Below are positions 70 to 31,726 of a DNA stretch of 33,961 bases, piece by piece (positions within the stretch are counted from its first letter, which is position 1; each line of letters opens with the position of its first letter). The stretch comes from an uncultured Clostridia bacterium (GTDB taxonomy: Bacteria > Bacillota > Clostridia > Oscillospirales > Acutalibacteraceae). The notes under the pieces were generated by a model, which did not search any database, was not told the DNA's origin, and was given only the letters and a program-made list of their open reading frames with translations. The stretch covers positions 1-33,961 of the forward strand of contig CALWVB010000022.1 in the NCBI GenBank assembly GCA_944384895.1, read 5' to 3'. The position numbers and the translations under genes are program-made.

Positions 70-363
70 AAAACTAATAAAAATAACATAATCCAAGACA
101 AGTCAACTACTGCCGTTATTATAGGGGGGCGCCCGCGCAGCGCATCAAAGATGCGCTGGGACGCAAAATAATTTCTTAATTATTTAGGCTGAGTTAATAA
201 GAGAAACTAGTATTATCTTAAATACTCATCATCTTTATATGGAGAATTATTTTGCATTGGCAACCATATAAATATGGTTGCCCCGCGGGCGCCCCCTACC
301 ATTTTGCAATCGGAAAATTTTTTTAATAATTATAAACGTTATTATATTTTATTATTATATAAA
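70..363. repeat. Left arm of a 294-bp inverted repeat
   Basis: This segment is the reverse complement of 7980-8273, with about eight substitutions and two compensating one-base indels by eye (roughly 97% identity) and identical total length. It contains cloverleaf element CLE1 in its centre plus about 54 bp of left flank and 67 bp of right flank. The two arms enclose 7.6 kb holding the cupin, jelly-roll, phosphoesterase, 5S, cysteine desulfurase, thiI and cinA genes. Positions 1-69 before it are AT-rich and hold nothing I recognise. Confidence 0.9.
124..296 (+). repeat. Cloverleaf palindromic element CLE1
   Basis: First of nine related intergenic elements. The outer stem pairs GGGGGGCGCCCGCG (124-137) with its complement at 284-296. 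Inside lie a hairpin on AGCGCATC/GATGCGCT (139-157), a long AT-rich arm closed by GCAAAATAATT/AATTATTTTGC (163-255) and a hairpin on GGCAACCATAT/ATATGGTTGCC (259-282). CLE4 is its near-identical copy in the opposite orientation, and CLE3 shares most of the inner-arm sequence. It lies 3' of the cupin gene. Confidence 0.9.
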
Positions 364-376
364 TTTATAAAATAAA

Positions 377-406
377 TCCCCAGTTATTATAAAATAGAAC
401 TGGGGA
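377..406 (-). terminator. Hairpin terminator 3' of the cupin gene
   Basis: TCCCCAGTT and AACTGGGGA form a 9-bp stem with a 12-nt loop just beyond the cupin stop codon. Tails on both sides are A/T-rich, so it may work in either direction. Confidence 0.6.
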
Positions 407-436
407 AATTATTATTTTTTATTATTTAGTCTAATA

Positions 437-781
437 TTAGTTTAATATAACAGCAATTATTTCCATATCTTCATCGCCAGTATTAGCAATAGAATGATAT
501 TGGCCGTTACGAGTTATAGTAGCATCTCCCTGTTTTACTGGTAAAATATTGCCGTTATCATCAAAAGTACCGTTGCCTTTTATTATATAAAAAATTTCTT
601 CTTCATTATTATGTATATGTTTACCGATGGAACAGCCTTTATGTAAAGTTATTTTAGCAATAAGACGGGCTTTTCCATCATATTCGCCTTTATTAAATAA
701 ATGCATAATTTCAACAGTGCCATCGCCGTCACGCATATGTTCACGCAGTTCTGTTATCATATTATCAGGTTGTTTTATCAT
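437..781 (-). CDS. Small single-domain cupin protein
   Basis: A 114-residue protein made almost entirely of one cupin beta-barrel. Cupin motif 1 is visible around residues 54-75 (His-x-His near KHIHNNEEEIFYIIKG) and motif 2 around 83-100, ending in the usual late histidine (YHSIAN). The motif-1 histidines and glutamate are the expected metal ligands. Small stand-alone cupins include isomerases, dioxygenases and sugar-binding sensors, so the substrate cannot be named. The start ATG follows AAAGGACG at suitable spacing. It begins 37 bp after the jelly-roll gene on the same strand, so the two are probably cotranscribed and may act on a common carbohydrate-like compound, which is inference. The protein has no signal peptide. 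Confidence 0.85.
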   Translation of the reverse strand: MIKQPDNMITELREHMRDGDGTVEIMHLFNKGEYDGKARLIAKITLHKGCSIGKHIHNNEEEIFYIIKGNGTFDDNGNILPVKQGDATITRNGQYHSIANTGDEDMEIIAVILN

Positions 782-818
782 AAAATTTCACGTCCTTTTT
801 AAGATTATTATTTTATTA

Positions 819-1442
819 TTAAAATTCCGGAGTATATTGTAATCGTTTTTCTATCCATTTAATTTGTTTTACAACGCAATTACGTATTTGTATATGGCTG
901 CAATAAGCTTCAAATCCAATTTTTGCATTTTTTTGATTATCAATTGGATCCGGATCAGTAACCTCCATTATAAGCTGGCCATCGATACAAATAAAGCAGT
1001 GACCGTCAATACTACCAGCCTGGATAAAATATATTCTGCCAGGTTCAAATTTAAAAATAGGATTAGCTGCGTTTAATTTATAATCAGGTGATTTTTCTAT
1101 ACCGACTTTACCAGCCCACCAGCCTTCTACACCTGCTACATATGCAGTTGAACGGACATTGTTTTTTTCATCCCAGCTTCCATTCCACATAACGTTTATA
1201 TCATGTGTGCATGGAGGAACTGTTCTTGCCTCAAATTCTACGGCTACATTACCAGGAAAATCAGCTTTTGATACAATCATACCGGGAAAATTACCGGGAT
1301 TTTTACCGTTTAACCAGCCGTTTTCATACCACCACTGACCGGTATATTGATTCCAATCATCAAGAAAATTTTCATCAAAAGGCTTATTATATATAACAGG
1401 GGATTCATCTAAAAACATTTGTTTATGAAGCAAGGTTATCAT
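819..1442 (-). CDS. Concanavalin-like jelly-roll protein, function unknown
   Basis: A 207-residue protein that looks like a single concanavalin A-like beta-sandwich of the kind seen in DUF1080/DUF1961-type proteins. It is rich in tryptophan, glycine and aromatic residues (QWWYENGWLNG near residue 36, EGWWAGKVG near 105). It has the typical late strands GRIYFIQAGSIDGHCFICIDGQLI and a closing IGFEAYCSHIQIRNC. There is no signal peptide or membrane segment, so it is probably cytoplasmic. AAGGAAGG precedes the ATG. It is followed 37 bp later by the cupin gene, suggesting a two-gene carbohydrate-related operon. The family assignment rests on overall pattern only; I cannot name a catalytic residue or substrate. 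Confidence 0.7.
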   Translation of the reverse strand: MITLLHKQMFLDESPVIYNKPFDENFLDDWNQYTGQWWYENGWLNGKNPGNFPGMIVSKADFPGNVAVEFEARTVPPCTHDINVMWNGSWDEKNNVRSTAYVAGVEGWWAGKVGIEKSPDYKLNAANPIFKFEPGRIYFIQAGSIDGHCFICIDGQLIMEVTDPDPIDNQKNAKIGFEAYCSHIQIRNCVVKQIKWIEKRLQYTPEF

Positions 1443-1478
1443 AATTTTATCCTTCCTTTTTATTTGTATATTAATAAA

Positions 1479-1487
1479 ATTATATCA
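1479..1487 (-). promoter_or_regulatory. Extended -10 promoter for the jelly-roll/cupin pair
   Basis: On the minus strand TGATATAAT is a perfect extended -10 box 37 bp upstream of the jelly-roll ATG. No good -35 box is seen, which extended -10 promoters tolerate. Confidence 0.55.
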
Positions 1488-1528
1488 TAAAAATATTCTT
1501 ATAAAAAGGAAAATTTTATTAAATATGT

Positions 1529-2374
1529 TTAATTATCTGAATGTAGCTCTATAATAACCAGTTCAGGACGATTAAATAATCTTGGAACAGAAGTTGTATT
1601 AGCTAAACCTCGGCTGACAATAGCAATAGAATCATTATCAAGTTTATATTTACCGCCGGAATAATCAGGCATCCATACCATATCAGGAGAAATAAGCCCT
1701 CCAATAAATGGAATATTAATTTGACCGCCGTGGAGATGACCGGATAAAATTAAATCATAATTTGCATCATTAAAACAATCGAGTAAATCAGCTCTATGAA
1801 ATAATAATATATTATAACCATCCATTGAAAGAGAACTAGAAATAGCATCTTCAGTTATTTCTATAGCTTCTTCTTTATCCCATACATTTGGATCAGATAT
1901 ACCAGTGAGATATATTATATCATCCTGTTTTGCTAATGCGACTGTTTTATTATCAAGCACTTTAACTCCACATTCTTCAAATTTTTTCATTACATCTTCA
2001 TAATCATACCGCCATATTTCATGATTGCCTGATACATAATATGTAGGTGCAATATTACAGCAATCCATAAGAAAATCATATACAGGCGTTAAATCAGTGA
2101 CATATTCATCTATAATATCTCCTGTAAGAGCTATCATATCAGGCTGTTGTTTTTGCAATGCATCTTTTAAACCAATAGGTATTATACCATGTAAATCAGA
2201 AATCTGAGCTATTTTTAATCCATTAAAACTATTGCTTATTTCATCGTCTGAAACTTTATATGTTTTTATTTTAAGCCTGTCATCAAATGCAATGAGGACT
2301 AATATGCCTAATATAATTAATATTATTAATAATATAATAAAATAGGTTTTATATTTTAATAAAAACTTCTTCAT
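1529..2374 (-). CDS. Membrane-anchored metallophosphoesterase (YkuE/YaeI-like)
   Basis: A 281-residue calcineurin-type phosphoesterase with one N-terminal membrane anchor (about residues 10-30, leucine/isoleucine-rich after a lysine-rich start). The full metal-site motif series is present: DLH (60-62), GD (85-86), GNHE (116-119), a later His near 193 and GHLHGG near 211-216. The length and the single anchor match the YkuE/YaeI group, reported to act on lipid-linked or UDP-sugar phosphates at the membrane. The exact substrate is not deducible. The ATG follows GTGGAGGGATTAAT. It lies 86 bp upstream of the jelly-roll gene on the same strand but with a promoter between, so it is probably its own unit. 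Confidence 0.88.
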   Translation of the reverse strand: MKKFLLKYKTYFIILLIILIILGILVLIAFDDRLKIKTYKVSDDEISNSFNGLKIAQISDLHGIIPIGLKDALQKQQPDMIALTGDIIDEYVTDLTPVYDFLMDCCNIAPTYYVSGNHEIWRYDYEDVMKKFEECGVKVLDNKTVALAKQDDIIYLTGISDPNVWDKEEAIEITEDAISSSLSMDGYNILLFHRADLLDCFNDANYDLILSGHLHGGQINIPFIGGLISPDMVWMPDYSGGKYKLDNDSIAIVSRGLANTTSVPRLFNRPELVIIELHSDN

Positions 2375-2580
2375 ATTAATCCCTCCACTAATATAAGTTA
2401 TCAGTTATAAATACGTTTAAAATAATAGAATTATTACAAATTAAAACTGTAGAAATATTTAAAACAGTATATATTATAATATTAATATACATATGTAATA
2501 AAGATAACACAATATAAAAAGATATTAAAAAATTAATACAAATAAAAAACATAAAACGTAAAAGGTACATGTGATAAAGA

Positions 2581-2754
2581 GGGGCGCCTGCGCAGCGCAT
2601 CTAAAAGATGCGCTAGTATGCAAAATAATACTTAATAATGAATCAAATCAAAAAGTAGCAGGATGTCCTTAATAAAAAACAATATTTATTTAGAGAAAAA
2701 TTATTTTGCAGTAAACCGCCATATTTATTAAATATGGCGGTACGCAGGCGCCCC
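2581..2754 (+). repeat. Cloverleaf palindromic element CLE2
   Basis: Outer stem GGGGCGCCTGCG pairs with CGCAGGCGCCCC. The first hairpin is AGCGCATC/GATGCGCT with a longer loop. The inner arm is TGCAAAATAAT/ATTATTTTGCA. The last hairpin is ACCGCCATATTTA-type with matching TAAATATGGCGGT: two stem bases differ from the usual AACC and both partners changed with them. The inner-arm interior is unrelated to CLE1. It lies between the phosphoesterase start and the 5S promoter. The remaining upstream stretch (2375-2580) is AT-rich with no gene. Confidence 0.9.
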
Positions 2755-2877
2755 ATAACATTAACCGGTATCATAATGTGTTTATTTTCTAATCATAGGT
2801 TTTTTACCTTTTTATGATTTATATTAATGTATGTTATATTTAATACAGAAAAATTTTAAAAAAATTTAAAAAAGTAC

Positions 2878-2906: not shown

Positions 2907-2948
2907 ACATTTCGTTCTTTGGAAAAAGGACAAACAAATCCAAATATG

Positions 2949-3064
<116 letters not shown>

Positions 3065-3070
3065 TTTATA

Positions 3071-3121: not shown

Positions 3122-3296
3122 AGTTAAGAGAAGCAAAACAGGAAACTACTCTTTTAGAGCGTTGCTTTAAGAAAGCAGAGGATGGCTATGCGTTGTCCTT
3201 TAAAAATTTCTTGACTCACCGCTCTTTCTGATGAGCGATTATTATTTACTGTTATATATCAAAACTATTGATAACAGCGGGATAGAAATAGTTTTG
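3122..3296 (+). other. Structured non-coding stretch after the 5S gene
   Basis: This gene-free region can fold as AGTTAAGA (3122-3129) with TCTTGACT (3209-3216) closing an interior with hairpins CTCT/AGAG (3149-3159) and TGCTTT/AAAGCA (3163-3177). It continues with CGCTC/GAGCG (3220-3237) and a 10-bp hairpin CAAAACTATT/AATAGTTTTG (3260-3296). This is more structure than the AT-rich surroundings, so a small RNA or regulatory leader is possible. I match it to no known family and see no clear promoter or reading frame. The strand is assumed. Confidence 0.25.
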
Positions 3297-3468
3297 GAAA
3301 CAGACTTTCACAAAGGATGGAATTTTTAATATAGATTTATAAAAATATATGCAAATGCCATTTATTTGCTTATAGATAATAGGAAAAGCTATATTATCCT
3401 AAATCAAATAATATATAAAATATGCATTAAAATATTAAAGAAAACATCTCTGGTTACGTTGCCGTAAA

Positions 3469-3642
3469 GGGGGCGCCTGCGTGCAACCATATTTCATATG
3501 GTTGCCAAATGCAAAATAATTCTCCATATAAAGATGATGAGTATTTAAGATAATACTAGTTTTCCTTATTAACTCAGCATGGGTATTAAAAAAATTATTT
3601 TGCGTAAAGCGCATCCTTTGGATGCGCTGCGCAGGCGCCCCC
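3469..3642 (-). repeat. Cloverleaf palindromic element CLE3
   Basis: Reverse orientation: the GCAACCATAT hairpin comes first and the GCGCATCC/GGATGCGC hairpin last. The outer stem is GGGGGCGCCTGCG with its complement. The inner arm shares a long block with CLE1 and CLE4 (GAGTTAATAAG through CTCATCATCTTTATATGG in that orientation), so these three are a subfamily. It lies between the 5S gene and the cysteine desulfurase promoter. Confidence 0.9.
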
Positions 3643-3871
3643 ATAAACGGTACTTTTACATTATCTGTTGCTTTTTTATTTTAGTCTTATTATTTATTCT
3701 TTTGTTTTGAGCGATTTAAATTATCTTAGAAATATCTTAGAAAATTTGATATATTGATAAAATTTGTGTACATTCTAGGAATAGAGCTTATAATAGATAT
3801 TATACAAAATCTGTGTATAACGTTACATTACCAGCAGTTTTAATTATCATCGAATTTTTAATGAAGATTTA

Positions 3872-6413: not shown

Positions 6414-7991
6414 ATGAACGCTGAAATATTATCTATCAGCAATGAACTTTTATATGGGGATGTTGTTAATGATAACGCCCAATATCTTTCTGTTCAAATG
6501 GAGAATATGGGTATAAATACAATTTGCCATACATCAATTCCATATAAAATGAAATTAATGGAAAAAGCATTAAATGATGTAAAAACACGCAGCAATATTG
6601 TATTTATAACTTGTGATATATATAAACCGGATTATAGAAATATAATTGAAACATTATCCAGAATATTTGGCGTTAGAACTGTACCATATACAGGCGGTTA
6701 TTCAGAAATGGAACAAAAGCCTGATAATATTAACGAGCTCAAAAATATAAAATATCCGGCAAACAGCGTACTTTTTCATGATAATAATAGTAATATATTA
6801 GGATTTGCCTTTCAATCTGGCAGACAGATTATAATAATGCTGCCAAATACTCACAATGAATTGGTATATATTTTTGAAAATCATGTTTCCAGTTACCTTA
6901 ATAAATTTTCAGTTGATTCTGTAAAATCTCATACTGTAAGAATATTTGGTGTTAGTATAAAAAAAGCCAGAAGCGTATTAAAAGATTATATTATAAAAGA
7001 AAATCCTATGGTAAGAATTTTTTCAGATAACGGTGAATGTGTAATAAAAATAACAGCTACTGCGGATAACCAGGATCATGCTAATCATATGATGGCGCCT
7101 ATTATAGCAGAAATAAAAAAACGTTTTGGCAGGACAATATATGGAGTGGATGTTAATAATTTGCAGGAAGTTGTTGTTGATTTATTAAAACGTAAATCTA
7201 TGACAGTATCGACTGCAGAATCATGTACAGCAGGACTTGTTTCAAAACGTATTACAGAAATTCCGGGCAGTTCAGATGTATTTACTTGCGGTATTACTGC
7301 ATATGCAAATGAAATTAAAACATCAATATTAGGTGTTAAAGCTGATACAATTGAAAAATATGGTGCAGTTAGTCCAGAAGTTGCAGCAGCTATGGCTATA
7401 GGCGTAAGAAGAGTAAGCGGTACAGCATTAGGTATTGGAATTACAGGTATAGCCGGTCCTGGCGGAGGCACTATAGAAAAACCAGTAGGGCTTGTATATG
7501 TTGCTTTAGCTGACAGCGGCAGGGTATGGGTTAAAAAATTAAGAGCAGCTCAGGGACGAGAAAGAGAATATATCCGTTCACTTGCAGCGTCAAATGCTCT
7601 TGATCTTGTAAGAAGATATTTAGACGGCCTGCCGGATCTTCCAGCTGGAGCTATATCACTTAATTCATATAAGACTAATAGAGACTTTCTGGATGCTATT
7701 ACACCGGAATTTGAAAATAATAAAAAGAAAAGTAATATAGATGAAGATGGAATTGAAAAAGTTATTGTTGTAGATGAAAACTTTAATAATCCTAAAATGA
7801 TGAAATCTTCAAAAAAGTGGCTCTTATGGGTTCTATTAATAATTGTTCTATTAGCAGTAACATTAGCTATATTATGGTTTACACCTTTAAATCCATTTGG
7901 CAATGCGGATATAGCATCTAATCCTGAATCAAATCCGGCGGTTATAAATAATTTGTCTCAGTTATCAGATTTATTTAATTTTATATTATAA
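6414..7991 (+). CDS. CinA-like protein with degenerate N-domain and C-terminal membrane anchor
   Basis: A 525-residue protein, about 110 longer than ordinary CinA. The C-terminal NMN deamidase (PncC) domain at about 248-405 is intact, with STAESCTAG (266-274), the PGSSDVF region and GITGIAGPGGG (342-352). The N-terminal COG1058/MoCF-like domain begins canonically (ELLYGDVVNDNAQYLS). However, the signature GGLGPTxDD is replaced by TCDIYKPDY near 66-74, and the usual LPGxPxE is LPNTHNE near 143, so its pyrophosphatase activity is probably lost. After the deamidase comes a charged linker (410-465), a transmembrane helix (469-490) and an outside tail rich in Asn/Ser. NAD-cycle salvage is the family role; membrane anchoring is unusual. 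AGGAGCGG precedes the ATG, and it is probably cotranscribed with thiI. Confidence 0.85.
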   Translation: MNAEILSISNELLYGDVVNDNAQYLSVQMENMGINTICHTSIPYKMKLMEKALNDVKTRSNIVFITCDIYKPDYRNIIETLSRIFGVRTVPYTGGYSEMEQKPDNINELKNIKYPANSVLFHDNNSNILGFAFQSGRQIIIMLPNTHNELVYIFENHVSSYLNKFSVDSVKSHTVRIFGVSIKKARSVLKDYIIKENPMVRIFSDNGECVIKITATADNQDHANHMMAPIIAEIKKRFGRTIYGVDVNNLQEVVVDLLKRKSMTVSTAESCTAGLVSKRITEIPGSSDVFTCGITAYANEIKTSILGVKADTIEKYGAVSPEVAAAMAIGVRRVSGTALGIGITGIAGPGGGTIEKPVGLVYVALADSGRVWVKKLRAAQGREREYIRSLAASNALDLVRRYLDGLPDLPAGAISLNSYKTNRDFLDAITPEFENNKKKSNIDEDGIEKVIVVDENFNNPKMMKSSKKWLLWVLLIIVLLAVTLAILWFTPLNPFGNADIASNPESNPAVINNLSQLSDLFNFIL

Positions 7992-8273
7992 TAAAATATA
8001 ATAACGTTTATAATTTTTAAGAAAATTTTCCGATTACAAAAGGGTAGGGGGGCGCCCGCGGGGCAACCATATAAATATGGTTGCTAATGCAAAATAATTC
8101 TCCATATAAAGATGATGAGTATTTAAGATAATACTAGTTTCTCTTATTAACTCAGCCTAAATATTTAAGAAATTATTTTGCGTCCCAGCGCATCTTTGAT
8201 GCGCTGCGCGGGCGCCCCCTATAATAACGGCAGTAGTTAACTTGTCTTGGATTATGTTATTTTTATTAGTTTT
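7980..8273. repeat. Right arm of the 294-bp inverted repeat
   Basis: Reverse complement of 70-363, same length. The homology begins inside cinA, covering its last three codons and the stop (7980-7991), then runs through CLE4 and 54 bp beyond it. Because homology extends well past the cloverleaf itself on both sides, this looks like a copied segment rather than two independent insertions. Confidence 0.9.
8047..8219 (-). repeat. Cloverleaf palindromic element CLE4
   Basis: Near-identical inverted copy of CLE1 (about three differences in 173 bp). The GCAACCATAT hairpin comes first and the AGCGCATC hairpin last, inside a GGGGGGCGCCCGCG outer stem. It lies between the convergent cinA and rny genes. 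No recA is present between them, although cinA-recA-rny is a common Bacillota neighbourhood. Confidence 0.92.
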
Positions 8274-8372
8274 ATTTATATTATAGTAATGTTATAATAA
8301 AGATAATTGTTATATAATATTGTTATAGTATTTCGTTTTATATAATTTGCGGTTAAAAGTATTTTTGTTACT

Positions 8373-11966: not shown

Positions 11967-12009
11967 ATCCCCTTTAGGGAGTAAAGCGACGAAGGAGCGA
12001 AAAAGAAAA

Positions 12010-12710
12010 CCACCCGCTATGCGGGAGGGAAATAAAAGTTTATACCAAAAAATCACCAATCAAGTACAATAAGGGTGTTCAGGCCTATTGTACAAAGAAA
12101 GGTGATTTTAATGGCAAATCAAACAAATAGTCTGTCGCATACAAAGTGGATGTGCAAATATCACATCGTCATAGTACCCAAATATAGAAGAAAAATTATC
12201 TATAACCAATACAGAGCAAGCTTACGAGAAATAATAAGACTGCTTTGCAAATACAAGGGAGTAGAAATTATAGAGGGGCATATGATGCCGGATCACGTAC
12301 ACTTGCTTTTAAGTATACCACCAAAGCAAAGTGTGTCAAGCTTCATGGGGTATTAAAAAGGGAAAAGCGCACTGATAATGTTTGACAAACATGCAAACCT
12401 GAAATACAAGTATGGGAAGAGGCACTTCTGGGGAGAAGGCTATTATGTAAGTACGGTAGGGCTCAATGAAGCAACGATAAAGAAATACATAGAAGACCAG
12501 GAGAAGCACGACATGGCATTAGACAAACTCAGTGTAAAGGAATACGAAGACCCTTTTAAGGGTAGCAGGTAATACGAACGCCCTTTAAGGGGCACGCAAA
12601 AGAGGCAAAGGCAATAGGCTTGAACACATGTGAAAGCCAGCGCCTTGAGACGCTGGCCGGTAACATGGGCTTATAGCCCTTGTTCATACCACCCGTCAAA
12701 CGGGGGGTTA
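12010..12710 (+). mobile_element. IS200-type insertion sequence
   Basis: About 700 bp, the usual IS200 size. Both ends carry the subterminal hairpins these single-strand transposons use: ACCACCCG-CTATG-CGGG at the left (12010-12030) and ACCACCCG-TCAAA-CGGG at the right (12688-12710). A second inverted repeat GTACAATA/TATTGTAC (12064-12093) lies in the transposase leader, where IS200 elements control their translation. Further hairpins (GCCAGCG/CGCTGGC, GGGCTTATAGCCC) precede the right end. There is no tnpB. The right end stops about 4 bp before the ilvD stop codon. Exact boundaries are uncertain by several bases. Confidence 0.85.
12111..12572 (+). pseudogene. tnpA: IS200-type Y1 transposase with internal stop
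   Basis: Starts at ATG 12111 (MANQTNSLSHTKWMCKYH) after AAAGGTGATTTT. The HUH metal motif is present in MPDHVHLLLSIPP. At 12354-12356 a TAA replaces the leucine codon expected in SSFMGY-L-KGKSAL. The frame then continues unbroken (KGKSALIMFDKHANLKYKYG ...) to a normal C-terminus at 12572. The catalytic tyrosine, in KKYIEDQEKHD, lies after the stop, so the truncated product cannot work. A single base change (TTA to TAA) explains it, which suggests recent inactivation; the full-length intact protein would be 153 residues. A sequencing error is also possible. Confidence 0.88.
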
Positions 12711-14382: not shown

Positions 14383-14693
14383 TTTTATCAGCCTCCTTTT
14401 TATCAAATATAAACATTCAGTAGGCATAGAAAATTATTGTATTATTATAAAACAATATTAATAAAAGAGTGGTATTTAAAACTAAAAAAGCAGAATTGCT
14501 TTACAATATGGTTTAATATGTGCAGATAATATTATTATTTTTGATTAAATAAAAGGTTACAGAAGAATAACTAATAATTTATAATGTTATAACTTTTGTA
14601 TTGGTATATATAAAGGGAAACTAAATAATAAAATCAAAAAAACTGTATAACAAATATAAATAAAGCACAGAAAGCTGAAAGGTTCCGCTGATA
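14383..14693. other. AT-rich gap upstream of ilvD
   Basis: About 310 bp with no gene. A TATAAT-like box occurs on the minus strand near 14438, without a convincing -35. A weak hairpin AAAGCA/TGCTTT lies near 14489. Nothing else is recognised. Confidence 0.5.
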
Positions 14694-14831
14694 GGGGGGC
14701 GCCTGCGCAGCGCATCTCTTAGATGCGCTCGATGCAAAAATACAGTATTCAGAAAATATAAGGTTATATTAATATAAGTGTATTTTTGCATATTGCAACC
14801 ATATAAAATATGGTTGCGCGCAGGCGCCCCC
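14694..14831 (+). repeat. Cloverleaf palindromic element CLE5 (short form)
   Basis: 138 bp. Outer stem GGGGGGCGCCTGCG with CGCAGGCGCCCCC. First hairpin AGCGCATC/GATGCGCT with a TCTTA-type loop. The inner arm TGCAAAAATACA/TGTATTTTTGCA differs from the ATAAT form on both strands. Last hairpin GCAACCATAT/ATATGGTTGC. Its inner arm is about 35 bp shorter than in CLE1 and closely resembles that of CLE7. It lies between ilvC and ilvD. Confidence 0.9.
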
Positions 14832-14984
14832 ACTTCTAAGGGTAACGTATCCGAAGATGTTTTTACTTTGATTATTTATGGTTGAATATTGTGTAATTTA
14901 GATGAGTTTTGAATATTTAATTTTCAATTTCTACTGCTCCCGCAAAAGTGATATAAAGATGAGATGTTATATCTAATAAATCTA

Positions 14985-15776
14985 CTGGACAGTAGGAATA
15001 TTATCTTTACAAAGGTAGACACCCTAAATTACGGCAGGGCTTGCGCACAGGGTAAACCGGCAAAGATAAGGAAATTACCGGGCGGCAGGGATGTTATTCT
15101 TGCCAAAGTATACACCGCGATTTGCAGCGCGGCTTCGCGCATCGGAATAGGATAAAGAAGTAAACCAATCGGGCGGCAGGGATGTTATTCTTGCCAAAGT
15201 ATACACCGCGATTTGCTACGCGGCTTCCGTGCATAGGAATAGGATGAAGAAGTAAACGTACCGGGTGGTAGGATGATATCATCGCAAGGGTACACACCAC
15301 GATTTGCAGCGCGACTTCGTGTATAGGAACCGGATAATAAAGTAAACCAATCGGGTGATATGGATGCTGTTCTCGCCAAAGTACACACCACGATTTGCTA
15401 CACGGCTTCGTGTATAGGAACCGGATAATAAAGTAAACCTACCGGACGCAGGAATGATATCCTTGCAAGGGTACACACCGCGATTTGCAGCGCGGCTTCG
15501 CGCATCGGAATAGGATAAAGAAGTAAACCTACCGGGCGGCAGGGATGATATCCTCGCAAGGGTACACACCACGATTTGCTACGCGGATTCGTGTATAGGA
15601 ACCGGATAATAAAGTAAACCAATCGGGTGATATGGATGCTATTCTTGCCAAAGTAAACACCACGATTTGCTACGCGGCTTCGCGCATCGGAATAGGATAA
15701 AGAAGTAAACCAATCGGGTGATATGGATGCTATTCTTGCCAAAGTAAACACCACGATTTGCAGCGCGGCTTTCGCG

Positions 15777-15779
<3 letters not shown>
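14985..15779. repeat. Tandem array of 91-bp repeats 3' of ilvC
   Basis: The marker CGATTTGC recurs at 15118, 15209, 15300, 15391, 15481, 15572, 15663 and 15754, spaced 91 bp except for one spacing of 90. A more divergent unit precedes them from about 14985. Each unit can form a hairpin such as GCGCG-GCTT-CGCGC, changed to TACACG-GCTT-CGTGTA with both arms altered, and a second around GGCAG...TTGCC. Two unit types (CGCGCATCGGAATAGGATAAAG and CGTGTATAGGAACCGGATAATAAAG in their middle parts) alternate irregularly. The array is GC-richer than its surroundings. Its right edge includes the ilvC stop codon. The period is not a multiple of three and reading frames across it keep shifting, so I do not regard it as coding. 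Confidence 0.93.
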
Positions 15780-16981
<1,202 letters not shown>

Positions 16982-17060
16982 ACTGTTAATACGGTTGCCA
17001 AATTGATTTTTTATTGGTTAAAGTTTAAATAAAGACTCTAAAGAAATAATTTTTATAAGT

Positions 17061-17568: not shown

Positions 17569-19239
17569 TTAATCCCATTGTGTAATGACATCATCGATTG
17601 TACCGCCTGCTGGGATCATAGGCAATACATTTTCATCTTTATTAATAGAACAGTCTATAATACAGGGACAATTTGCGTTAAGCGCAGTATTAAATGCTTC
17701 TTTAAATTCATCAGGGCTATTAGTTCTAAAACCTTTAGCTCCAAAAGCTTCGGCGAGCTTTACATAATCAGTTTTACGATTAGGTGAAGTGGATGAAAAT
17801 CTGCTGTTATAAAATATTTTCTGCCATTGGCGAACCATACCTAATACGGTATTATTCATAATAACAGTGATTATCGGTAGATTATAGCTTACAGCAGTAC
17901 ACACTTCATTGAGATTCATATGAAAGCTTCCATCACCAGTGATATGTATAACCTTTCTTAAATCGCCAACTGCTACTTTTGCGCCTATAGCAGCGCCATA
18001 ACCAAATCCCATTGTACCAAGGCCTCCGGAAGTTAAAAATGACCTGGGTTTTGTACGGCGATAATATTGCGCTGCCCATATTTGATGTTGACCAACATCG
18101 GTTACGATTATAGCATCTTCACCAGCCATACTTGATATGGTATCCATAACCTGATGAGGTTTTAATATTTTATCAGAATCAATAGGTTTATAATCATTTT
18201 TTTGCCAAGTATTTATTTGTTCCATCCATTCAAATCTATCCTGTTGATTTATTTTAGGCAATATTTTATTTAAAAAATATTTAGCGTCGCTTACAACACT
18301 GTAATCAATATGAACATTTTTATTTATTTCACTTGCATCTATATCAACATGGATTATTTTTGCATTATTAGCAAATTTTTTAGTATTTAATGCAACTCTA
18401 TCAGAAAAACGCATACCAATTGCAATAATAAGATCAGATTTTTCCATAGCATAACCGGAAGTTAGCTGGCCATGCATACCAACCATACCCATATTAAGCG
18501 GATGATCATAGCTTAATACTCCAGTACCCATTATCGTATGGCAGGTTGGGATATTGGATTTTTCTATTAATTCTGTAAGTTCTTGTGAACTTTCAGAGGA
18601 TATTATACCACCGCCAAATAATAATACTGGACGTTTAGCATTATTAATTTCATCACTTATATTGTTGAGAATATCGTTATCAATAGAATAACTTGGATGG
18701 TCAATAATAGGCAGTTTATCAGTAAATTCACATTTAGCTGCTGTAATATCTTTAGGTATATCTACTAATACAGGACCTTTTCTTCCTGTATTAGCTATTT
18801 TAAAAGCTTCTCTTAATATATCAGCTAAATCCTCGACATGATGTACAATATAATTATGTTTTGTCACTGACATTGTAATACCAGCTATATAAACTTCTTG
18901 GAAACTATCCCTTCCGATAAGGTTAGTACTGACATTGCCGGTAATAGCAACCATAGGAACAGAATCCATATAAGCAGTGGCAATACCTGTTACAAGATTA
19001 GTAGCGCCAGGACCGGAGGTTGCTATAACAACGCCGGTTTTACCCGTAGCTCTTGCATAACCGTCGGCAGCATGCGCAGCGCCCTGTTCATGTGCGGTCA
19101 TAATATGTTTTATACGGTCACGGTTTTCATATAACGCATCATATATATTGAGTACAGCGCCTCCTGGATATCCAAAAACAGTAGTAGCTCCCTGTTCTAT
19201 TAAAACTTCTGCTAATATTTGTGCTCCTGTAAGTTTCAT
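17569..19239 (-). CDS. ilvB: Acetolactate synthase large (catalytic) subunit
   Basis: A 556-residue thiamin diphosphate enzyme condensing two pyruvates, or pyruvate with 2-oxobutyrate. Seen are the N-terminal FGYPGGAVLNIYDALY, the catalytic glutamate in HEQGAAHAADGYARATGK, the SGPGATN loop, the RDSFQE segment and the C-terminal cofactor motif GDGSFHMNLNE...MNN. The length and motifs fit the anabolic, IlvN-regulated type rather than the catabolic one. The ATG follows AAAGGAGGAAC. Expression is set by the T-box leader directly upstream. ilvN follows after 25 bp. Confidence 0.96.
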   Translation of the reverse strand: MKLTGAQILAEVLIEQGATTVFGYPGGAVLNIYDALYENRDRIKHIMTAHEQGAAHAADGYARATGKTGVVIATSGPGATNLVTGIATAYMDSVPMVAITGNVSTNLIGRDSFQEVYIAGITMSVTKHNYIVHHVEDLADILREAFKIANTGRKGPVLVDIPKDITAAKCEFTDKLPIIDHPSYSIDNDILNNISDEINNAKRPVLLFGGGIISSESSQELTELIEKSNIPTCHTIMGTGVLSYDHPLNMGMVGMHGQLTSGYAMEKSDLIIAIGMRFSDRVALNTKKFANNAKIIHVDIDASEINKNVHIDYSVVSDAKYFLNKILPKINQQDRFEWMEQINTWQKNDYKPIDSDKILKPHQVMDTISSMAGEDAIIVTDVGQHQIWAAQYYRRTKPRSFLTSGGLGTMGFGYGAAIGAKVAVGDLRKVIHITGDGSFHMNLNEVCTAVSYNLPIITVIMNNTVLGMVRQWQKIFYNSRFSSTSPNRKTDYVKLAEAFGAKGFRTNSPDEFKEAFNTALNANCPCIIDCSINKDENVLPMIPAGGTIDDVITQWD

Positions 19240-19630: not shown

Positions 19631-19791
19631 GTATGATAGAGGTAAAAATATTTCCAATAATTCATATATAAATTGTATAGTATAACAAAATAATACATGA
19701 ATAAAACTGTTTTAATATAAAACAAAGTAAGTATTGAGAAAATTTATCTTAACAAAAAATAGAAAACAGATAAATACCATTGCCAGGCAGT

Positions 19792-19924
19792 GGGGCGCCT
19801 GCTTAGCGCATCTTTGATGCGCTTGGTGCAAAAATACTTTGTTCAGAAAGTATAAGATTATATTAATTTAAAAGTATTTTTGCATATTGCAACCATATAA
19901 AATATGGTTGCTAGCAGGCGCCCC
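19792..19924 (+). repeat. Cloverleaf palindromic element CLE7 (short form)
   Basis: 133 bp. Outer stem GGGGCGCCTGCT with AGCAGGCGCCCC. First hairpin AGCGCATC/GATGCGCT. Inner arm TGCAAAAATACTTT/AAAGTATTTTTGCA. Last hairpin GCAACCATAT/ATATGGTTGC. Sister of CLE5. It lies between the divergent ilv and gls24-like promoters. The rest of this gap, 19925-20172, is very AT-rich with nothing recognised. Confidence 0.9.
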
Positions 19925-20172
19925 ATTTTAACGTTACGGAACCGGAAATGTTTTATATTATTTTAATCTATAAGGGTTTTATATTAATTTTTAATAAGGT
20001 TTATGAGATATTTTGTAATGTTATAATTTAGGATAATACGGTTTTGTTAATATATTAATTATAATAAAAATTTGTAAATTAATAAAAAATCATAAAGCCT
20101 GAATATATGCATAAAATATATTATAAGTTATAGAATTAAGTTTTTTAAACAATATAATATTATTATATCCGC

Positions 20173-20727: not shown

Positions 20728-22389
20728 TTGATTCAGGGAAATATGCTGCGCGACGCTATAATCTCAGCAGCTAACAGCATTGCTAATAACCGCAAGGCTG
20801 TAGATGATTTAAATATTTTCCCGGTTCCAGATGGGGATACTGGTACAAATATGTCGATGACAGTTGGCGCGGCTTCAAAAGAACTCGCGCATTTTAATAT
20901 TGATGAAGTGGGTGAAGTAGCATCCTGTGCTGCTTCTGCAATGCTCAGGGGAGCAAGAGGAAATTCTGGAGTTATAACCTCCCTTTTATTTAGAGGTTTT
21001 GCTAAAGGATTAAAAGATAAAAATTTTGCAACCGGCGAAGATTTGGCTAATGCTATGACTCTTGGAGTAGAAGCTGCATATAAAGCTGTTATGAAGCCTA
21101 CAGAGGGAACAATTTTAACTGTAGCAAGGATAGCAGCAGAAAAAGGCCGTGCATCAGCCGCAGCCGGAGCGGATGCTGTTGAAGTATGGAACGCTATGTG
21201 TAAAGGCGCTGAAGAAGCTTTAGAAATGACTCCGGAATTATTACCGGTATTAAAGAAAGTCGGCGTTGTTGATGCAGGCGGTAAAGGCTTAACGCTTATC
21301 ATGAACGGTATGAAATCTGTTTTTGAAAATGGCGTTATTGTAAAAAGCCAGACAGATGATAATAAACAAACGGAAGAAGATTTTATAGCTGTAACGCAAA
21401 AAAATGCAGCAGCTGAATATGAAGGCGAAATCACATTTACTTATTGTACTGAATTTATTATAGAAAGGGATCAAAAAATAGAAAAAGATCCTCTTGATTT
21501 GCGTAAATATCTTGAAAGCATAGGCGATTCAGTTGTTGTAGTAGATGATGAAGAAATTATAAAAGTTCATGTGCATACTGATAATCCAGGTAATGCTATC
21601 CAGCATGGCCTTGAATATGGTATGATGATATCAAGTAAAATTGAAAATATGCGTAAACAGCATGAACAGGCTAAAAAAGATGCTGGTATTGTTGACAATG
21701 AACCGGAAGAAGATTATGCTGAGCCGGTTGAAGATATAGGATTTGTATCTGTTGCAGCTGGTAACGGTGTTAAAGATTTATTCCGTGATTTAGGTGTAAA
21801 TCAAATTGTTTCCGGCGGTCAGACTATGAATCCATCAACTGAAGATATTTTAAAGGCTGTATTAAAAGTACCAGCAAAAACTGTATATGTTCTGCCTAAT
21901 AATAAAAATATAATAATGGCGGCTGAACAGGTTATCCCTCTTGCTGACCGTAAAGTTATTGTTGTGCCTACAAGGACTATACCTCAAGGTATTTCTTCTA
22001 TGATGGCATATGATCCGGATGCCTCAGATGAAGAAAATCTTATGAGTATGGTTAAAGCCGCTGATAATGTATCAACCGGTATGATTACCTTTGCTGCAAG
22101 AGATTCTGAATTTGACGGCCATAAAATAAAACAAAATGAAATTATGGCGCTTGATAACGGTAAATTAGTATTTACTGAAAAATCACCTGTAAAAGCAGCT
22201 ATTAAGCTTATAAGAAGCCTTACTAAAAAGGATACTCAGTTTATTACTATCCTTTATGGTGAAGGAATAACAAAAGAGCAGGCTAATGAACTTTACCGTA
22301 ATATTTCTTCAAAAGTATCAAATGATGTGGAAATTACTATGGTAAACGGTGGCCAGCCGGTATATTATTTTATAATTTCTGTAGAATAA
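20728..22389 (+). CDS. fakA: Fatty acid kinase FakA-like (DAK2/DegV-type, YloV)
   Basis: A 553-residue protein with an N-terminal DhaL-type kinase domain (about 1-200, nucleotide site NIFPVPDGDTGTN at 29-41 and RGARGNSGVI near 74) and C-terminal FakA domains (from about 225, with VHVHTDNPGNAI and later VSGGQTMNPSTEDIL). FakA phosphorylates fatty acids held by a FakB (DegV) protein, letting the cell use exogenous fatty acids. No fakB is seen in this window. The start is TTG at 20728, ten bases after GGGAG; the first ATG is 15 bp further and poorly spaced. It follows the Gls24-like gene and is followed by a hairpin before recG. Confidence 0.92.
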   Translation: MIQGNMLRDAIISAANSIANNRKAVDDLNIFPVPDGDTGTNMSMTVGAASKELAHFNIDEVGEVASCAASAMLRGARGNSGVITSLLFRGFAKGLKDKNFATGEDLANAMTLGVEAAYKAVMKPTEGTILTVARIAAEKGRASAAAGADAVEVWNAMCKGAEEALEMTPELLPVLKKVGVVDAGGKGLTLIMNGMKSVFENGVIVKSQTDDNKQTEEDFIAVTQKNAAAEYEGEITFTYCTEFIIERDQKIEKDPLDLRKYLESIGDSVVVVDDEEIIKVHVHTDNPGNAIQHGLEYGMMISSKIENMRKQHEQAKKDAGIVDNEPEEDYAEPVEDIGFVSVAAGNGVKDLFRDLGVNQIVSGGQTMNPSTEDILKAVLKVPAKTVYVLPNNKNIIMAAEQVIPLADRKVIVVPTRTIPQGISSMMAYDPDASDEENLMSMVKAADNVSTGMITFAARDSEFDGHKIKQNEIMALDNGKLVFTEKSPVKAAIKLIRSLTKKDTQFITILYGEGITKEQANELYRNISSKVSNDVEITMVNGGQPVYYFIISVE

Positions 22390-25735: not shown

Positions 25736-25970
25736 AATTGATTAAATAACTGCCAGCTATGCAGGCAGATACAGAGTTTATAAAATCCAACAGATATATT
25801 TAAAGTTAAGATAAGCCAGCACAACTAAAAATATCGTGAATATCTTTTTAGAAAAATATAAATAGTTTACAACATAAAAAGCGGAGATGTAAATACCATT
25901 ATAGTCTTGGCTGAAATAATATAAACCATGCAAAATAGAAAAGATAGTATAAAAGCATCGTTAAAAGGGA
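25736..25970. other. Gene-free gap before CLE8
   Basis: About 235 bp, AT-rich, no open frame of note. A small hairpin CTGCC/GGCAG lies near 25750-25768. Nothing else is recognised. Confidence 0.5.
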
Positions 25971-26145
25971 GGGGGGCGCCCGCGAAGCGCGTCTAAAGAC
26001 GCGCTGGTGCGCAAAATAATATATAAATATATGCCTTAGTAAAAAAGGGGAACTAATATTTCTTAAAATTACCAGGCATATTTATACAGCGTATTATTTT
26101 GCGCAAAGCGGCCATATAAAATATGGCCGCGCGCGGGCGCCCCCC
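25971..26145 (+). repeat. Cloverleaf palindromic element CLE8
   Basis: 175 bp, the longest copy. Outer stem GGGGGGCGCCCGCG with its complement. The first hairpin is AGCGCGTC/GACGCGCT: an A-T pair of the usual AGCGCATC has become G-C on both arms. The inner arm GCGCAAAATAATA/TATTATTTTGCGC extends further with TATAAATATATGCC/GGCATATTTATA. The last hairpin GCGGCCATAT/ATATGGCCGC is changed on both arms from GCAACC. It lies between the small peptide gene and the end of rnfB. Confidence 0.92.
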
Positions 26146-26238
26146 TTTTTAAGGGTAACTCAGTTGAATATATTTTAATTATACAAAACATTTACTTTGG
26201 CTGCTTATTGATGATTATATAATTTACATTAATATAGT

Positions 26239-27051
26239 TTATGCATTCTGCAGCTGCTTTATTTTTAAAAGATCAATACAATTTGATGGACAAACGCTAA
26301 CGCAGTCGCCGCATCCAATGCATTTATCAGAATCAATATGAGCGACAAAATTTGATACTTTTATAGCATCATGAGTACAAGTTTTCTCGCATCTCATACA
26401 ACCAATACAACCGGCTGAACATTGTTTGCGTGTTTGGCCGCCTTTATCTTTATTGGAACAAAATACTACAGCAGGACTATCACCGAAAACTATATCAATA
26501 AGATTTTTTGGACATCTTGGAACGCATTGTCCACATGCAATACAAGATGAAGCATTAATGACAGCAACGCCGTTGCATATACTGATAGCATTATTAGGAC
26601 ATGCTTTAATACAATCGCCCAAACCTAAGCAGCCGTATGAACATTTACCATCGCCGCTGTATATCATATTGATTGCAGCACACGATTTTACACCGTCATA
26701 TTTATAAGTTTTACCTGTTTTATCACATGTACCGTTACATTTTACAACAGCTGTCTTTGCTTTTATTTCACCGGCTGCTACTCCTAATATAGCTGCGATA
26801 TCATTTGCACATGCAGCACCTCCAGGTGAACATAAACCGTTTTTGGCAGTACCGTCAGCTAAAGCTTTAGCATACCCATCACAGCCGGAATAACCGCATG
26901 CACCGCAATTAGCGCCCGGCAATACATCACGTACAGCCATAGCTTTTTCATCAACTGGAACCGCCATAATAATTGAAGCTACTGATAATCCTATACCAGC
27001 TATTAATCCGATTACCGCTACAACTAAAACAGGGATAAGTATAGCACTCAT
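26239..27051 (-). CDS. rnfB: Rnf complex iron-sulfur subunit RnfB
   Basis: A 270-residue subunit with an N-terminal membrane helix (about 3-30), then the RnfB-specific cluster C49-x2-C52-x4-C57-x16-C74. Four ferredoxin-type cysteine groups follow near 137-151, 170-180, 211-225 and 244-254 (CIACGQCVPRCP, CIGCGDCVSVCP). It is the likely entry point for electrons from reduced ferredoxin. Clostridial RnfB proteins carry more clusters than the gammaproteobacterial form, as here. GGAGGAATTTTATTTT precedes the ATG. It is the last gene of the operon; no clear terminator is seen before CLE8, whose strong structure might serve as a 3' end. Confidence 0.95.
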   Translation of the reverse strand: MSAILIPVLVVAVIGLIAGIGLSVASIIMAVPVDEKAMAVRDVLPGANCGACGYSGCDGYAKALADGTAKNGLCSPGGAACANDIAAILGVAAGEIKAKTAVVKCNGTCDKTGKTYKYDGVKSCAAINMIYSGDGKCSYGCLGLGDCIKACPNNAISICNGVAVINASSCIACGQCVPRCPKNLIDIVFGDSPAVVFCSNKDKGGQTRKQCSAGCIGCMRCEKTCTHDAIKVSNFVAHIDSDKCIGCGDCVSVCPSNCIDLLKIKQLQNA

Positions 27052-28969: not shown

Positions 28970-29970
28970 GCCTTAGCGCCCCCTTTGACCTTTTTCTCTT
29001 TAAGATCGCCAAATGGACGAGGACGGGTAAGACGTTCTATATGAGGAACAAGAAGATTCATAATAATAATTGAATAAGAAACGCCTTCCGGAAGTGATGC
29101 AAAGAAACGGATTATTACAGTTATAAGGCCGCATCCGATTGCAAATATAATTTTACCGGTAAAATTAATAGGAGAAGTTGTATAATCTGTAGCCATAAAT
29201 ATAGCGCCTAAAAGCAAACCGCCGGATAAAAGCTGTGCCGGCAAGAAACTGATAGATGAACCATCTATACCGGCAAAATCCAATATCATCATAAATATAG
29301 CCGCTGTACCGATAAAACAAACAGGGATTATAGGAGAAATAACCTTGCGGGCTATTAAATATATTCCGCCGATAATAAGGGCAATAGCACATGTTTCACC
29401 TAAACATCCTCCGCGAAGCCCCAGCAGCATATTTCCAATAGAAGGAAGACCTTCACCTGATCCTTCAGACATTATAGCAAGAGGAGTAGCGGTTGTAGTA
29501 GCGTCAATACCGCCGTCTTTTATCCAGGCAAGCGGCGCCGGCCAGGTAGTCATCTTAGTTGGGAAGGATACCATAAGAATAATTCTGGCGATTAAAGCAG
29601 GATTTACAAAGTTTTGTCCAATACCACCGAATAACTGTTTTACTACAATTATTGCGATAGCTCCGCCTAATACGCCCATCCAGATAGCATCAAGTGTAGC
29701 CGGAAGATTAAATGAAAGCAGCATACCGGTTACCACAGCTGATAAATCGCCTATTGTATTATCACGTTTTAATATTTTCCTTGATATGTATTCGCTTAAA
29801 ACACATGCTGCAATAGTTGCAGCGGTAATAATAGGCACAATCCAGCCGAATATCACTGTAGCAGCGATAAAAGCAGGAATAAGTGCGATAACAACATCAA
29901 GCATAATACGTCTTGTAGTATCATGAGCTTGAAGATGAGGGGAGGAGGAGACAATAAGTTCTTTTGACAT
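28966..29970 (-). CDS. rnfD: Rnf complex membrane flavoprotein RnfD
   Basis: A 334-residue membrane subunit of the RnfD/NqrB family with about nine or ten hydrophobic helices. The covalent FMN site is expected at the threonine in GGIDATTTATPLA. The start MSKELIVSSSPH follows GGAGG about 12 bp away; an ATG 30 bp upstream would overlap rnfC and lacks family residues. RnfD carries the proposed ion-translocating pathway, sodium or proton; the sequence alone does not decide which. Confidence 0.95.
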   Translation of the reverse strand: MSKELIVSSSPHLQAHDTTRRIMLDVVIALIPAFIAATVIFGWIVPIITAATIAACVLSEYISRKILKRDNTIGDLSAVVTGMLLSFNLPATLDAIWMGVLGGAIAIIVVKQLFGGIGQNFVNPALIARIILMVSFPTKMTTWPAPLAWIKDGGIDATTTATPLAIMSEGSGEGLPSIGNMLLGLRGGCLGETCAIALIIGGIYLIARKVISPIIPVCFIGTAAIFMMILDFAGIDGSSISFLPAQLLSGGLLLGAIFMATDYTTSPINFTGKIIFAIGCGLITVIIRFFASLPEGVSYSIIIMNLLVPHIERLTRPRPFGDLKEKKVKGGAKA

Positions 29971-29974
29971 AATT

Positions 29975-31333
29975 TTATTTAACCTCCTTTTTAGGCGCAT
30001 TTCTTATAATAGATTTAGCAAGACGCATTGCCTGAACTATCCTTCGTCCAGCAGGACAAGCATAAGCACAGCAGCCGCATTCCATACATACCATAGCACC
30101 GGCTTTTTCAAGGCCTTCGGCATCTCTTGCATTTACCAGCTTGGATATTTCAGGAGGAACCAGATGCATAGGACATACCGATACGCATCTTCCGCAACGA
30201 ATACATGCGCCCGGTTCGCGTAATACAGCGTCGTTTTCTAAAAATGCTAATATAGCGTTATTTTGTTTTAATATAGGAAGGGTATCGTCTTTAAGAGCTA
30301 AACCCATCATAGGACCGCCCATCATTAATTTGGATGGTTCTTCTTTATATCCGCCTGCAAAGGAGATTACTTCACTGATAGGAGTACCTATACATACTTC
30401 AACATTCTTAGGCGACCAGATAGCCGAACCATCTATTGTAAGGCGTTTATTTATAAGAGGCATACCAGTTTTAAGATAGCGGGCAAGAAATGATATTGAT
30501 GTAACATTCATAACAATAACGCCCACATCAGACGGTAATTTACCTTTTGGCACCACTCTGCCGGTAGTTTGCTTTATAAGCACTTTTTCAGCGCCTTGAG
30601 GGTATCTGCAAGGAAGAGGCATAACATTGACTTCATGTTTAGGATCATTTGAATTATTAGCTATATCGCTGAGTACCTTTATAGCCTCAGGTTTATTTTT
30701 TTCTATAGCAATTATAACATTTTTAATATTAAGCAGTTCCTTTACATCATATATTCCAGACATAATATCCCAACTATTTTCCATACATTCACGATAGTCG
30801 GCAGTAATATATGGTTCGCATTCAGCTCCGTTTACTACAAGCGTATCTATAGTTACTCCAGCGGGAGGATTAAGCTTAATAAAAGCCGGGAATCCTGCAC
30901 CGCCAAGACCTACTAAACCGGATGCGCGTACAGCTTTAATAAAACTATCCTTATCGGTGATTTTAGGCGGTTTCACACTATCGCTGACAGTCATAAGACC
31001 GTCTGATTCGATTTCAACTGCTTGAGTTGTTTGACCGCCTGGCAACATAATAGAATTTATAGCGCTAACTTTACCTGATATAGGCGAATGAATAGGTGCG
31101 GATACAAATTTATCACTATCGCCTATGACCTGGCCGACTGCTACAATATCGCCAACCTTGACAGTAGGAATACAAGGCGCGCCTATATGTTGCTGCATAG
31201 CAAGTATTACCTTATTGGGGGGCGGCATTTTTACAGTTTCAAATTCGGCTGTATTTTTCCTATGAGGTACAGCCACTCCGCCGCGTGTGCCATAACCCCG
31301 CAGCAAAGTATCACCTTTACTTCTTTGAGACAT
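29975..31333 (-). CDS. rnfC: Rnf complex NADH-side subunit RnfC
   Basis: A 452-residue peripheral subunit with an N-terminal barrel-sandwich region, the glycine-rich FMN/NADH site GLVGLGGAGFPAFIKL, a SLBB-type domain and two C-terminal 4Fe-4S motifs (CIRCGRCVSVCP and CMECGCCAYACP). It reduces NAD+ with electrons delivered through the complex. Two ATGs lie six bases apart. The upstream one (31339) abuts the GGAGG box, so the second (31333, MSQRSKGD) has correct spacing and is preferred. It is the first gene of the rnf block; its stop is 4 bp before the rnfD start. Confidence 0.94.
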   Translation of the reverse strand: MSQRSKGDTLLRGYGTRGGVAVPHRKNTAEFETVKMPPPNKVILAMQQHIGAPCIPTVKVGDIVAVGQVIGDSDKFVSAPIHSPISGKVSAINSIMLPGGQTTQAVEIESDGLMTVSDSVKPPKITDKDSFIKAVRASGLVGLGGAGFPAFIKLNPPAGVTIDTLVVNGAECEPYITADYRECMENSWDIMSGIYDVKELLNIKNVIIAIEKNKPEAIKVLSDIANNSNDPKHEVNVMPLPCRYPQGAEKVLIKQTTGRVVPKGKLPSDVGVIVMNVTSISFLARYLKTGMPLINKRLTIDGSAIWSPKNVEVCIGTPISEVISFAGGYKEEPSKLMMGGPMMGLALKDDTLPILKQNNAILAFLENDAVLREPGACIRCGRCVSVCPMHLVPPEISKLVNARDAEGLEKAGAMVCMECGCCAYACPAGRRIVQAMRLAKSIIRNAPKKEVK

Positions 31334-31557
31334 ATTCATCCTCCATTATAAAAAAGTTATGTAGATAAAAACTATATAAAATTAGTCATACGGGGTACTC
31401 CACTCCCGTAATATAAAATATTTATATATACTATCTATTTATTTAAAATATTAACTATACAAAAGTAATTTTAAAATACAAACATATAAGTTATATTAAA
31501 AAACTAATCTTAATTTAAAATAATAAATAAGACAGTAAAAAGGACTGTTTGATGAGT
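31334..31557. other. Leader region upstream of rnfC
   Basis: About 220 bp, very AT-rich. The one clear structure is a hairpin TACGGG (31389-31394) with CCCGTA (31405-31410), which could be a regulator site or leader fold. Several weak TATA-like boxes occur on the minus strand but I cannot choose a promoter. Confidence 0.4.
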
Positions 31558-31726
31558 GGGACGCCTGCGCAGCGCATCAAAGATGCGCTTAGATGCAAAA
31601 TAATATAAAATAATAAGCAAATTGAATTAAAAAAGAAAACAGATATTTTCTTAAAAAATGTACTTTAAATAGCAAATTATTTTGCGTTTGGCAGTCATAT
31701 TTTATATGACTGCACGCAGGCGTCCC
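31558..31726 (+). repeat. Cloverleaf palindromic element CLE9
   Basis: 169 bp. Outer stem GGGACGCCTGCG with CGCAGGCGTCCC: a G-C pair of the family has become A-T on both strands. First hairpin AGCGCATC/GATGCGCT. Inner arm TGCAAAATAAT/ATTATTTTGCG. Last hairpin GCAGTCATAT/ATATGACTGC, changed on both arms from GCAACC. It lies between the Gx-type gene and rnfC. Confidence 0.92.

Follow-up and report, generated by a model that had tools for sequence, protein, structure and literature searches.

A 33,961-nt contig (CALWVB010000022.1, positions 1 to 33,961; hereafter the window) of an uncultured Clostridia bacterium of the Acutalibacteraceae (assembly GCA_944384895.1) carries nine intergenic sequences, CLE1 to CLE9, that can fold into a cloverleaf. 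Our analysis indicates that these cloverleaves are probably the centres of copies of a non-autonomous mobile DNA element of ~350 bp, which resembles miniature inverted-repeat transposable elements (MITEs), whose hairpin loops flip and whose hairpin arms are probably copied onto one another. An initial annotation of the window had proposed either a non-autonomous mobile element or an RNA element for these sequences; the first of these fits the data.

Nine copies of the element in the window

All nine cloverleaves lie exactly where the initial annotation had placed them, the layout that it described (an outer stem enclosing a hairpin, H1, an inner arm and a second hairpin, H2) was recovered in 9/9 folds, and the matched changes on the two strands that it named are seen in the window copies. 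DNA folding energies of the nine cores lie 7.2 to 11.7 standard deviations under those of 60 dinucleotide shuffles (z -7.2 to -11.7); with RNA parameters the minimum-energy fold of CLE2 and CLE9 deviates in the inner arm. Seven elements are on the plus strand, and CLE3 and CLE4 have the opposite orientation. The element boundaries of CLE1 (68..369, core 124-296, profile positions 44-349 of 368), CLE2 (2489..2838, core 2581-2754, profile positions 4-347), CLE5 (14609..14910, core 14694-14831), CLE7 (19713..20044, core 19792-19924), CLE8 (25922..26240, core 25971-26145) and CLE9 (31458..31827, core 31558-31726) were obtained from nhmmer matches and core folds. CLE6 (16786..17026, core 16848-16981) is the most diverged window copy and shares with CLE5 and CLE7 a short inner arm. 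On the minus strand, CLE3 (3385..3732, core 3469-3642) is full-length and belongs to the youngest subfamily, and CLE4 (7982..8281, core 8047-8219) shares 95% identity with CLE1 across 315 nt.

The cloverleaf is the middle of a longer unit that has spread as a whole

Further copies were collected in a sample of 647,619 bases of the host genome, comprising the window and 40 other stretches and covering 30% of a genome that is 88% complete. The stretches were chosen where matches lay, so that the sample is enriched in copies. The first 70 cores were selected by a paired outer stem, and a sequence-only profile was then built from 67 of them. It gave 148 non-overlapping matches, 132 of them above 100 bits; nine matches lacking a core were dropped, leaving 139 copies with a core.

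Alignment of 67 copies with their flanks revealed that conservation continues for ~90-100 nt on each side of the cloverleaf. The resulting unit of ~350 bp consists of imperfect terminal inverted repeats, an A-rich left arm, the cloverleaf and a T-rich right arm. When CLE3 was used as a BLAST query, 27 of the 68 matches longer than 250 nt started at query position 19 and 22 ended at positions 366-367, and these shared ends define the CLE3 unit as 3385-3732 on the minus strand. The left end, TTCTAAGATAATTTAAAT, and the right end, ATTTAGGATAATATAGC(T/A), are inverted repeats of one another, though imperfect ones. Several diverged subfamilies retain a recognisable right end; in the most diverged copies the outer ends frequently fail to align. 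The profile matches most copies on the reverse strand too, and the unit is therefore quasi-palindromic. When the complete unit is folded as single-stranded DNA, the cloverleaf lies at the tip of the fold (z -6.4). Conservation is higher in the central cloverleaf, a GC-rich four-way structure, than in the arms. A preferred insertion site is evident: 41 copies give ATTG(C/T)ATT for its left side and 43 copies give TT-NN-CTAT for its right side, with each letter present in 36-100% of copies. L068 alone is flanked by a 9-nt repeat on both sides, which other copies lack.

Diverged subfamilies have each spread as one ~350-bp unit: L040 and L045 are 94% identical over 356 nt within unrelated flanks, and the flanks of CLE1 and CLE4 are likewise unrelated beyond their 315 nt of similarity. 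A locus duplication was considered for the latter pair and rejected, as the homology ends within the element. Arm matches adjoin a core in 57/58 and 53/54 cases. The 132 copies above 100 bits are distributed over tandem gaps (64), divergent gaps (24), convergent gaps (22) and positions near stretch ends (20), with only two inside open reading frames of at least 90 amino acids. Of these copies, 67 point the same way as the local coding strand and 65 the opposite way (21 and 28, respectively, among young copies). With respect to what is usually asked of a MITE, the unit has a size within about 100-600 bp, no transposase reading frame and many copies.

Two variants stand out within the sample. 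One subfamily (L035, L032, L030, L063, L068, L070 and L042) has a different right arm (CTCTTAGCTTT...ATAATCGGTAG...) with the same core and right end. In L035, the cores at 3168-3410 and 11969-12209 are ~75 nt longer, with extra sequence in hairpin 2, and perhaps contain a second small element nested inside the first.

The element was detected in a single genome

An exact inner-stem pattern matched 267 times in the genome and 121 times in the sample, and by scaling from the sample, rather than by counting, we arrive at a genome total of about 300 copies. The hairpin-1 pattern alone had 137 genomic matches. Several host contigs (e.g. C5, C7, C9 and C114) have a terminus within or close to an element, as expected of a repeat that breaks the assembly.

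Outside the host, the hairpin-1 pattern had no match in 39 relatives, and a covariance model found no copy in 199 other genomes of the family, with 13 candidates scored per genome. BLAST of the element against phage and plasmid collections returned nothing, nor did an exact scan for the left end in viral contigs. As for similar folds, 0/54 inverted pairs in relatives (328,718 bases of 17 genomes) contained two inner hairpins, versus 123/159 in the host sample. Rfam, at the gathering score as well as at E 0.5, placed no family at the elements of the window. Some candidates were rejected: the inner-stem pattern matched in one of 397 other genomes of the phylum and in four viral contigs, with 0/5 of these matches adjoined by a GC-rich outer stem, and at least 21 single matches from a pattern scan of genome contigs, by name mostly in GC-rich genera, were taken as chance. 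Identity to the sister genome G001 amounts to 64-73% in matched stretches of genes and to 80-83% at the 5S region, a divergence too great for empty sites to be recognised.

Stems are kept paired, and hairpin loops are inverted

To characterise the stems we used 40 cores, selected for their diversity out of 107 that had cleared filters on shape, a choice that makes the covariation test lean towards intact copies. In these, 98.5% of 1,666 pair cells are paired, and pairing falls to 34-52% when the partner is shifted by 1-3 columns. Two-sided change occurs in 15/42 pairs, versus 6.3 +/- 1.3 in shuffles, and in 71 cells, versus 16.8 +/- 3.1; for both counts 0/500 shuffles were as high. Nine of the ten inner-arm pairs are invariant in the 40 cores, so that it is the short-armed copies, CLE5-7 among them, in which this arm shows matched change. 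On a tree of the 139 copies, pair 234-250 underwent 24 substitutions on each side, 22 of them joint and all from canonical to canonical; the corresponding figures are 11, 11 and 10 joint for pair 233-251, and 10, 10 and 10 joint for pair 106-258. Intermediates are nearly missing from the states of pair 106-258 (TA 110, CG 28, AT 1), and pair 233-251 shows AT 108, CG 23, GC 7 and AC 1.

The stem sequence itself is conserved as well. In the most arm-diverged quartile (32 of the 128/139 copies with enough arm; arm identity 0.51-0.63), stems are off consensus at 4.8/78 bases on average, and all 39 pairs are kept in 19/32 copies. Hence the earlier statement that a folded nucleic acid, and not a sequence, is being kept holds for the fold, which is preserved with double changes above shuffles, and fails for its second half.

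Among 129/139 copies that passed an end-motif filter, 126 H1 and 124 H2 loops could be read, and they are mostly a given sequence or its reverse complement: TTT in 37 and AAA in 36 for H1, and TTC in 31, GAA in 25, AAA in 19 and TTT in 12 for H2. A tree of 113 copies was made without the hairpins, on which loop orientation, classed in 94 (H1) and 88 (H2) copies, is random (31 steps versus 31.6 +/- 2.8 in shuffles, and 28 versus 29.5 +/- 2.2). Already among copy pairs less than 0.08 apart, H2 is the same in 5, inverse in 6 and other in 7 (H1: 13, 3 and 1), and pairs separated by 0.08-0.12 are split evenly between the two states (44 same versus 42 inverse, and 38 versus 36), with a nearly even split from there on. 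Flips of H1 and of H2 are independent of each other (p 0.50). The long inner arm stays unflipped (standard in 84 copies, inverted in 1 and unclear in 29). For the core as a whole, the arms score better inverted in 6/129 copies, with 21 unclear.

Template switching between inverted repeats is known to homogenise the arms and to invert the spacer (PMC8604942, PMC8794818). Loop inversion together with double changes that lack intermediates is the signature of such switching between hairpin arms, and not of selection on an RNA. During replication of a hairpin, the polymerase would jump from arm to arm and copy one arm onto the other, producing compensatory pairs in an instant, and the same switch would also invert the loop. 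Much of the matched change, from which the initial annotation had concluded that a fold is being kept, therefore has a mutational explanation, since about half of the loops are inverted and intermediates of the double changes are nearly missing.

Switching alone nevertheless does not account for the slow change of the stems, because copying of arms does not by itself slow substitution. Probably, the stem sequence and the fold are also selected. As the subfamilies moved as units, selection is most simply taken to act on the ability to transpose and not on any use that the host makes of the element.

Elements at one codon of IS200-like tnpA genes

A PF01797 search of the genome gave 15 matches at 12 loci of IS200-like tnpA (Y1_Tnp). 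Elements occupy one identical codon within the YHIV-F-(A)PKYRR motif in 7/12 of these loci; an eighth locus, in C114, starts inside an element that ends at the same codon position. Three loci (in the window, C22, and in C63 and C46) have no interruption, and C64 could not be assigned. The window gene (12144..12500, plus strand) has one internal stop, and at the usual insertion codon it lacks the GTGTT found in interrupted copies. Three further tnpA fragments outside the 12 loci carry the element (L074, L072 and L035, the last with the left junction only). Orientation within tnpA is identical in 9/9 readable cases (L084, L085, L086, L088, L089, L090, L091, L074 and L035). The element of C114 (L083, G000) is peculiar in its first 110 bases, read on the reverse strand: the right part resembles an inverted left arm and is followed by a normal right end, possibly the result of a flip of the whole interior.

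Where two copies can be compared over 200 or more aligned tnpA bases, the elements are 77-92% identical and the 3′ tnpA flanks 65-81%. Young copies show a wide gap between element and flank (e.g. 92% versus 75% for L085/L091), and the closest relatives of the elements of L088, L074 and L084 are copies outside tnpA; for these two reasons, several of the tnpA insertions look independent. In older copies the gap is narrow (82% versus 81% for L086/L072), and these may descend from an inherited insertion. If the repeated, oriented insertion reflects targeting, it would be a case of one mobile element disarming another.

What might move the element, and alternative explanations

We propose that an enzyme acting in trans would move the copies by recognising their ends and, probably, the folded core as well; its need for the core would then preserve stem sequence and pairing. 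Several results weigh against this account. The terminal inverted repeats match at 13/18 positions when aligned by hand and are thus imperfect, and the target duplication is TT at most, with no longer repeat common to both ends. Neither an autonomous copy nor a matching transposase was found in the 30% sample and five genome-wide searches for recombinase and transposase families, the other 70% of the genome being covered by whole-element BLAST and family models. Flipping by itself occurs too seldom for ~98% of stem cells to stay paired, so that the part played by selection is inferred. Finally, double changes exceed shuffles, but under a simple, heavy-tailed phylogenetic null only 5/69 structure pairs reach E<0.05, and none does so in an all-pairs test.

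For the enzyme type, an HUH/Y1 enzyme of the IS200/REPIN kind is our tentative first choice, followed by a site-specific recombinase and, with equal reserve, a DDE transposase. The genome contains one rve transposase, at a locus with two end-like matches of four mismatches each, both pointing outwards; no IS110 transposase was found by a family search of the whole 88%-complete genome.

A specific form of the first option, in which the element is REPIN-like and moved as single-stranded DNA by a Y1 transposase of the IS200/RAYT type, with the cloverleaf as substrate, is plausible enough to be entertained, if short of an even chance. A ′clover′ fold recognised in the manner of IS200 was proposed for REPINs (PMC3116915). 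The genome has Y1 genes at 12 loci, and the left target ATTG[CT]ATT is similar to ATAGC[TA]TT, the right end of the element itself. Such resemblance of target and end is shown by the cleavage sites of some IS200/IS605 elements. However, the orientation bias expected of lagging-strand-directed Y1 transposition is absent (67 versus 65 copies, and 21 versus 28 young ones), none of the 12 loci in the 88%-complete genome has a full-length, stop-free and uninterrupted Y1 match, the H1 and H2 sequences differ, and there is no GTAG foot.

Somewhat less probable is that a serine or tyrosine site-specific recombinase, acting at a TT core, moves the element as a cassette. TT alone is common to both junctions, the joined ends would form an imperfect palindrome (12/18 by hand), family searches of the genome gave six serine and eight tyrosine recombinase matches, and the tnpA insertions have the same orientation wherever it can be read. 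Against it, the sites number in the hundreds, differ from one another and share a weak consensus, and elements near recombinase genes (L097, L098, L101 and L140) are no more frequent than copy density predicts. A bolder version of a mobile element moved in trans is speculative: a new element class whose enzyme would read the cloverleaf as well as the ends, with a folded single strand as the moving form, each passage resetting and flipping the hairpins, and oriented insertion at a single conserved tnpA codon silencing IS200 transposases.

That template switching alone maintains the stems, the fold having no function, is improbable. It would account for the intermediate-free double changes and for loop inversion, but in the most diverged quartile 4.8/78 stem bases have changed against ~40% of the arms, and the inner stem is nearly invariant although its loop does not flip. 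That the element serves the host as a structured RNA or in cis-regulation, akin to the second proposal of the initial annotation, is very unlikely in spite of the covariation and the stable fold. In 39 stem pairs of 139 copies (5,359 cells) we counted 5,267 Watson-Crick, 20 G-T, 32 A-C and 40 other pairs; G-T does not differ from A-C (p 0.13), so that wobble pairs show no RNA-strand preference, and random orientation, inverted loops and the lack of an Rfam match disfavour this proposal further. A single copy scanned for signals had no terminator-like match; its promoter-like matches, by consensus only, numbered 9 versus 3.8 +/- 2.3 in shuffles. An intron-like insertion removed from tnpA RNA, suggested by the common codon and orientation in many tnpA genes and by the stop-free 3′ parts of the interrupted genes of C114, C5 and C39, is hardly credible, given that most copies are intergenic, that Rfam found no intron in the window and that the element ends fit neither the group I nor the group II intron rules.

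Neighbouring features of the window

A 5S rRNA gene (2949-3065) lies between CLE2 and CLE3. Directly downstream of a KARI gene (15777-16862, minus strand), a 91-bp unit, not a multiple of three, is repeated in tandem at 15079-15777 (7.7 copies, 81% matches). A T-box leader (Rfam RF00230; 19310-19578, minus strand) is found upstream of a TPP-enzyme gene (17569-19239), with CLE7 just beyond it, and a gene for a FakA-like protein occupies 20728-22389. In the plasmid collection the best match of this protein, at 52%, is a Subdoligranulum record, which points to a host probably within the Clostridia.

Significance and comparison with known systems

Compensatory change is usually regarded as the best support that sequence data can lend to a functional RNA. 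In the present case, the parallel trials of these hairpins in a single genome, with loop inversion at equilibrium and double changes free of intermediates, indicate that covariation can arise largely from a mutation process of DNA, which calls for caution in searches for RNA genes that draw on covariation in repeats. The same copies offer a natural system in which rates of template switching can be measured.

We regard the element as a variant of the MITE/REPIN-like elements and, by anatomy and distribution, as MITE-like. As described for the bacterial MITEs Correia, Chunjie, QMITE and ERIC (PMC10969869, where 711 ERIC copies are cited for Photorhabdus), it is short, AT-rich overall, devoid of open reading frames, intergenic and high-copy, with a stable predicted fold. 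Unlike MITEs, it has imperfect terminal repeats, a TT duplication at most, no parent insertion sequence found in the sample, and a central GC-rich four-way cloverleaf that outlasts the arms in conservation. With REPINs and the REP sequences associated with RAYT, as presented in PMC3116915, it shares a high copy number in extragenic positions, compensatory changes, a pair of hairpins flanking a spacer that pairs, and a possible clover fold. It differs from them in its length of ~350 nt and in its hairpins H1 (AGCGCATC...) and H2 (GCAGCCATAT...), which are not inverted copies of one REP. The GTAG tag named for REP hairpins in PMC3733652 is absent as a foot from the consensus of the 40 cores, no intact single-copy Y1 gene was found in the 88%-complete genome, and the hairpin loops were shown here to invert. 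Homogenised arms, instant compensatory change and inversion of the loop or spacer are features in common with the inverted repeats reported for template switching (PMC8794818, PMC8604942). Whereas those studies compare rRNA genes between species and coding DNA between yeast strains, the present element provides more than 100 copies within one genome, with loops in the two orientations at ~50:50.

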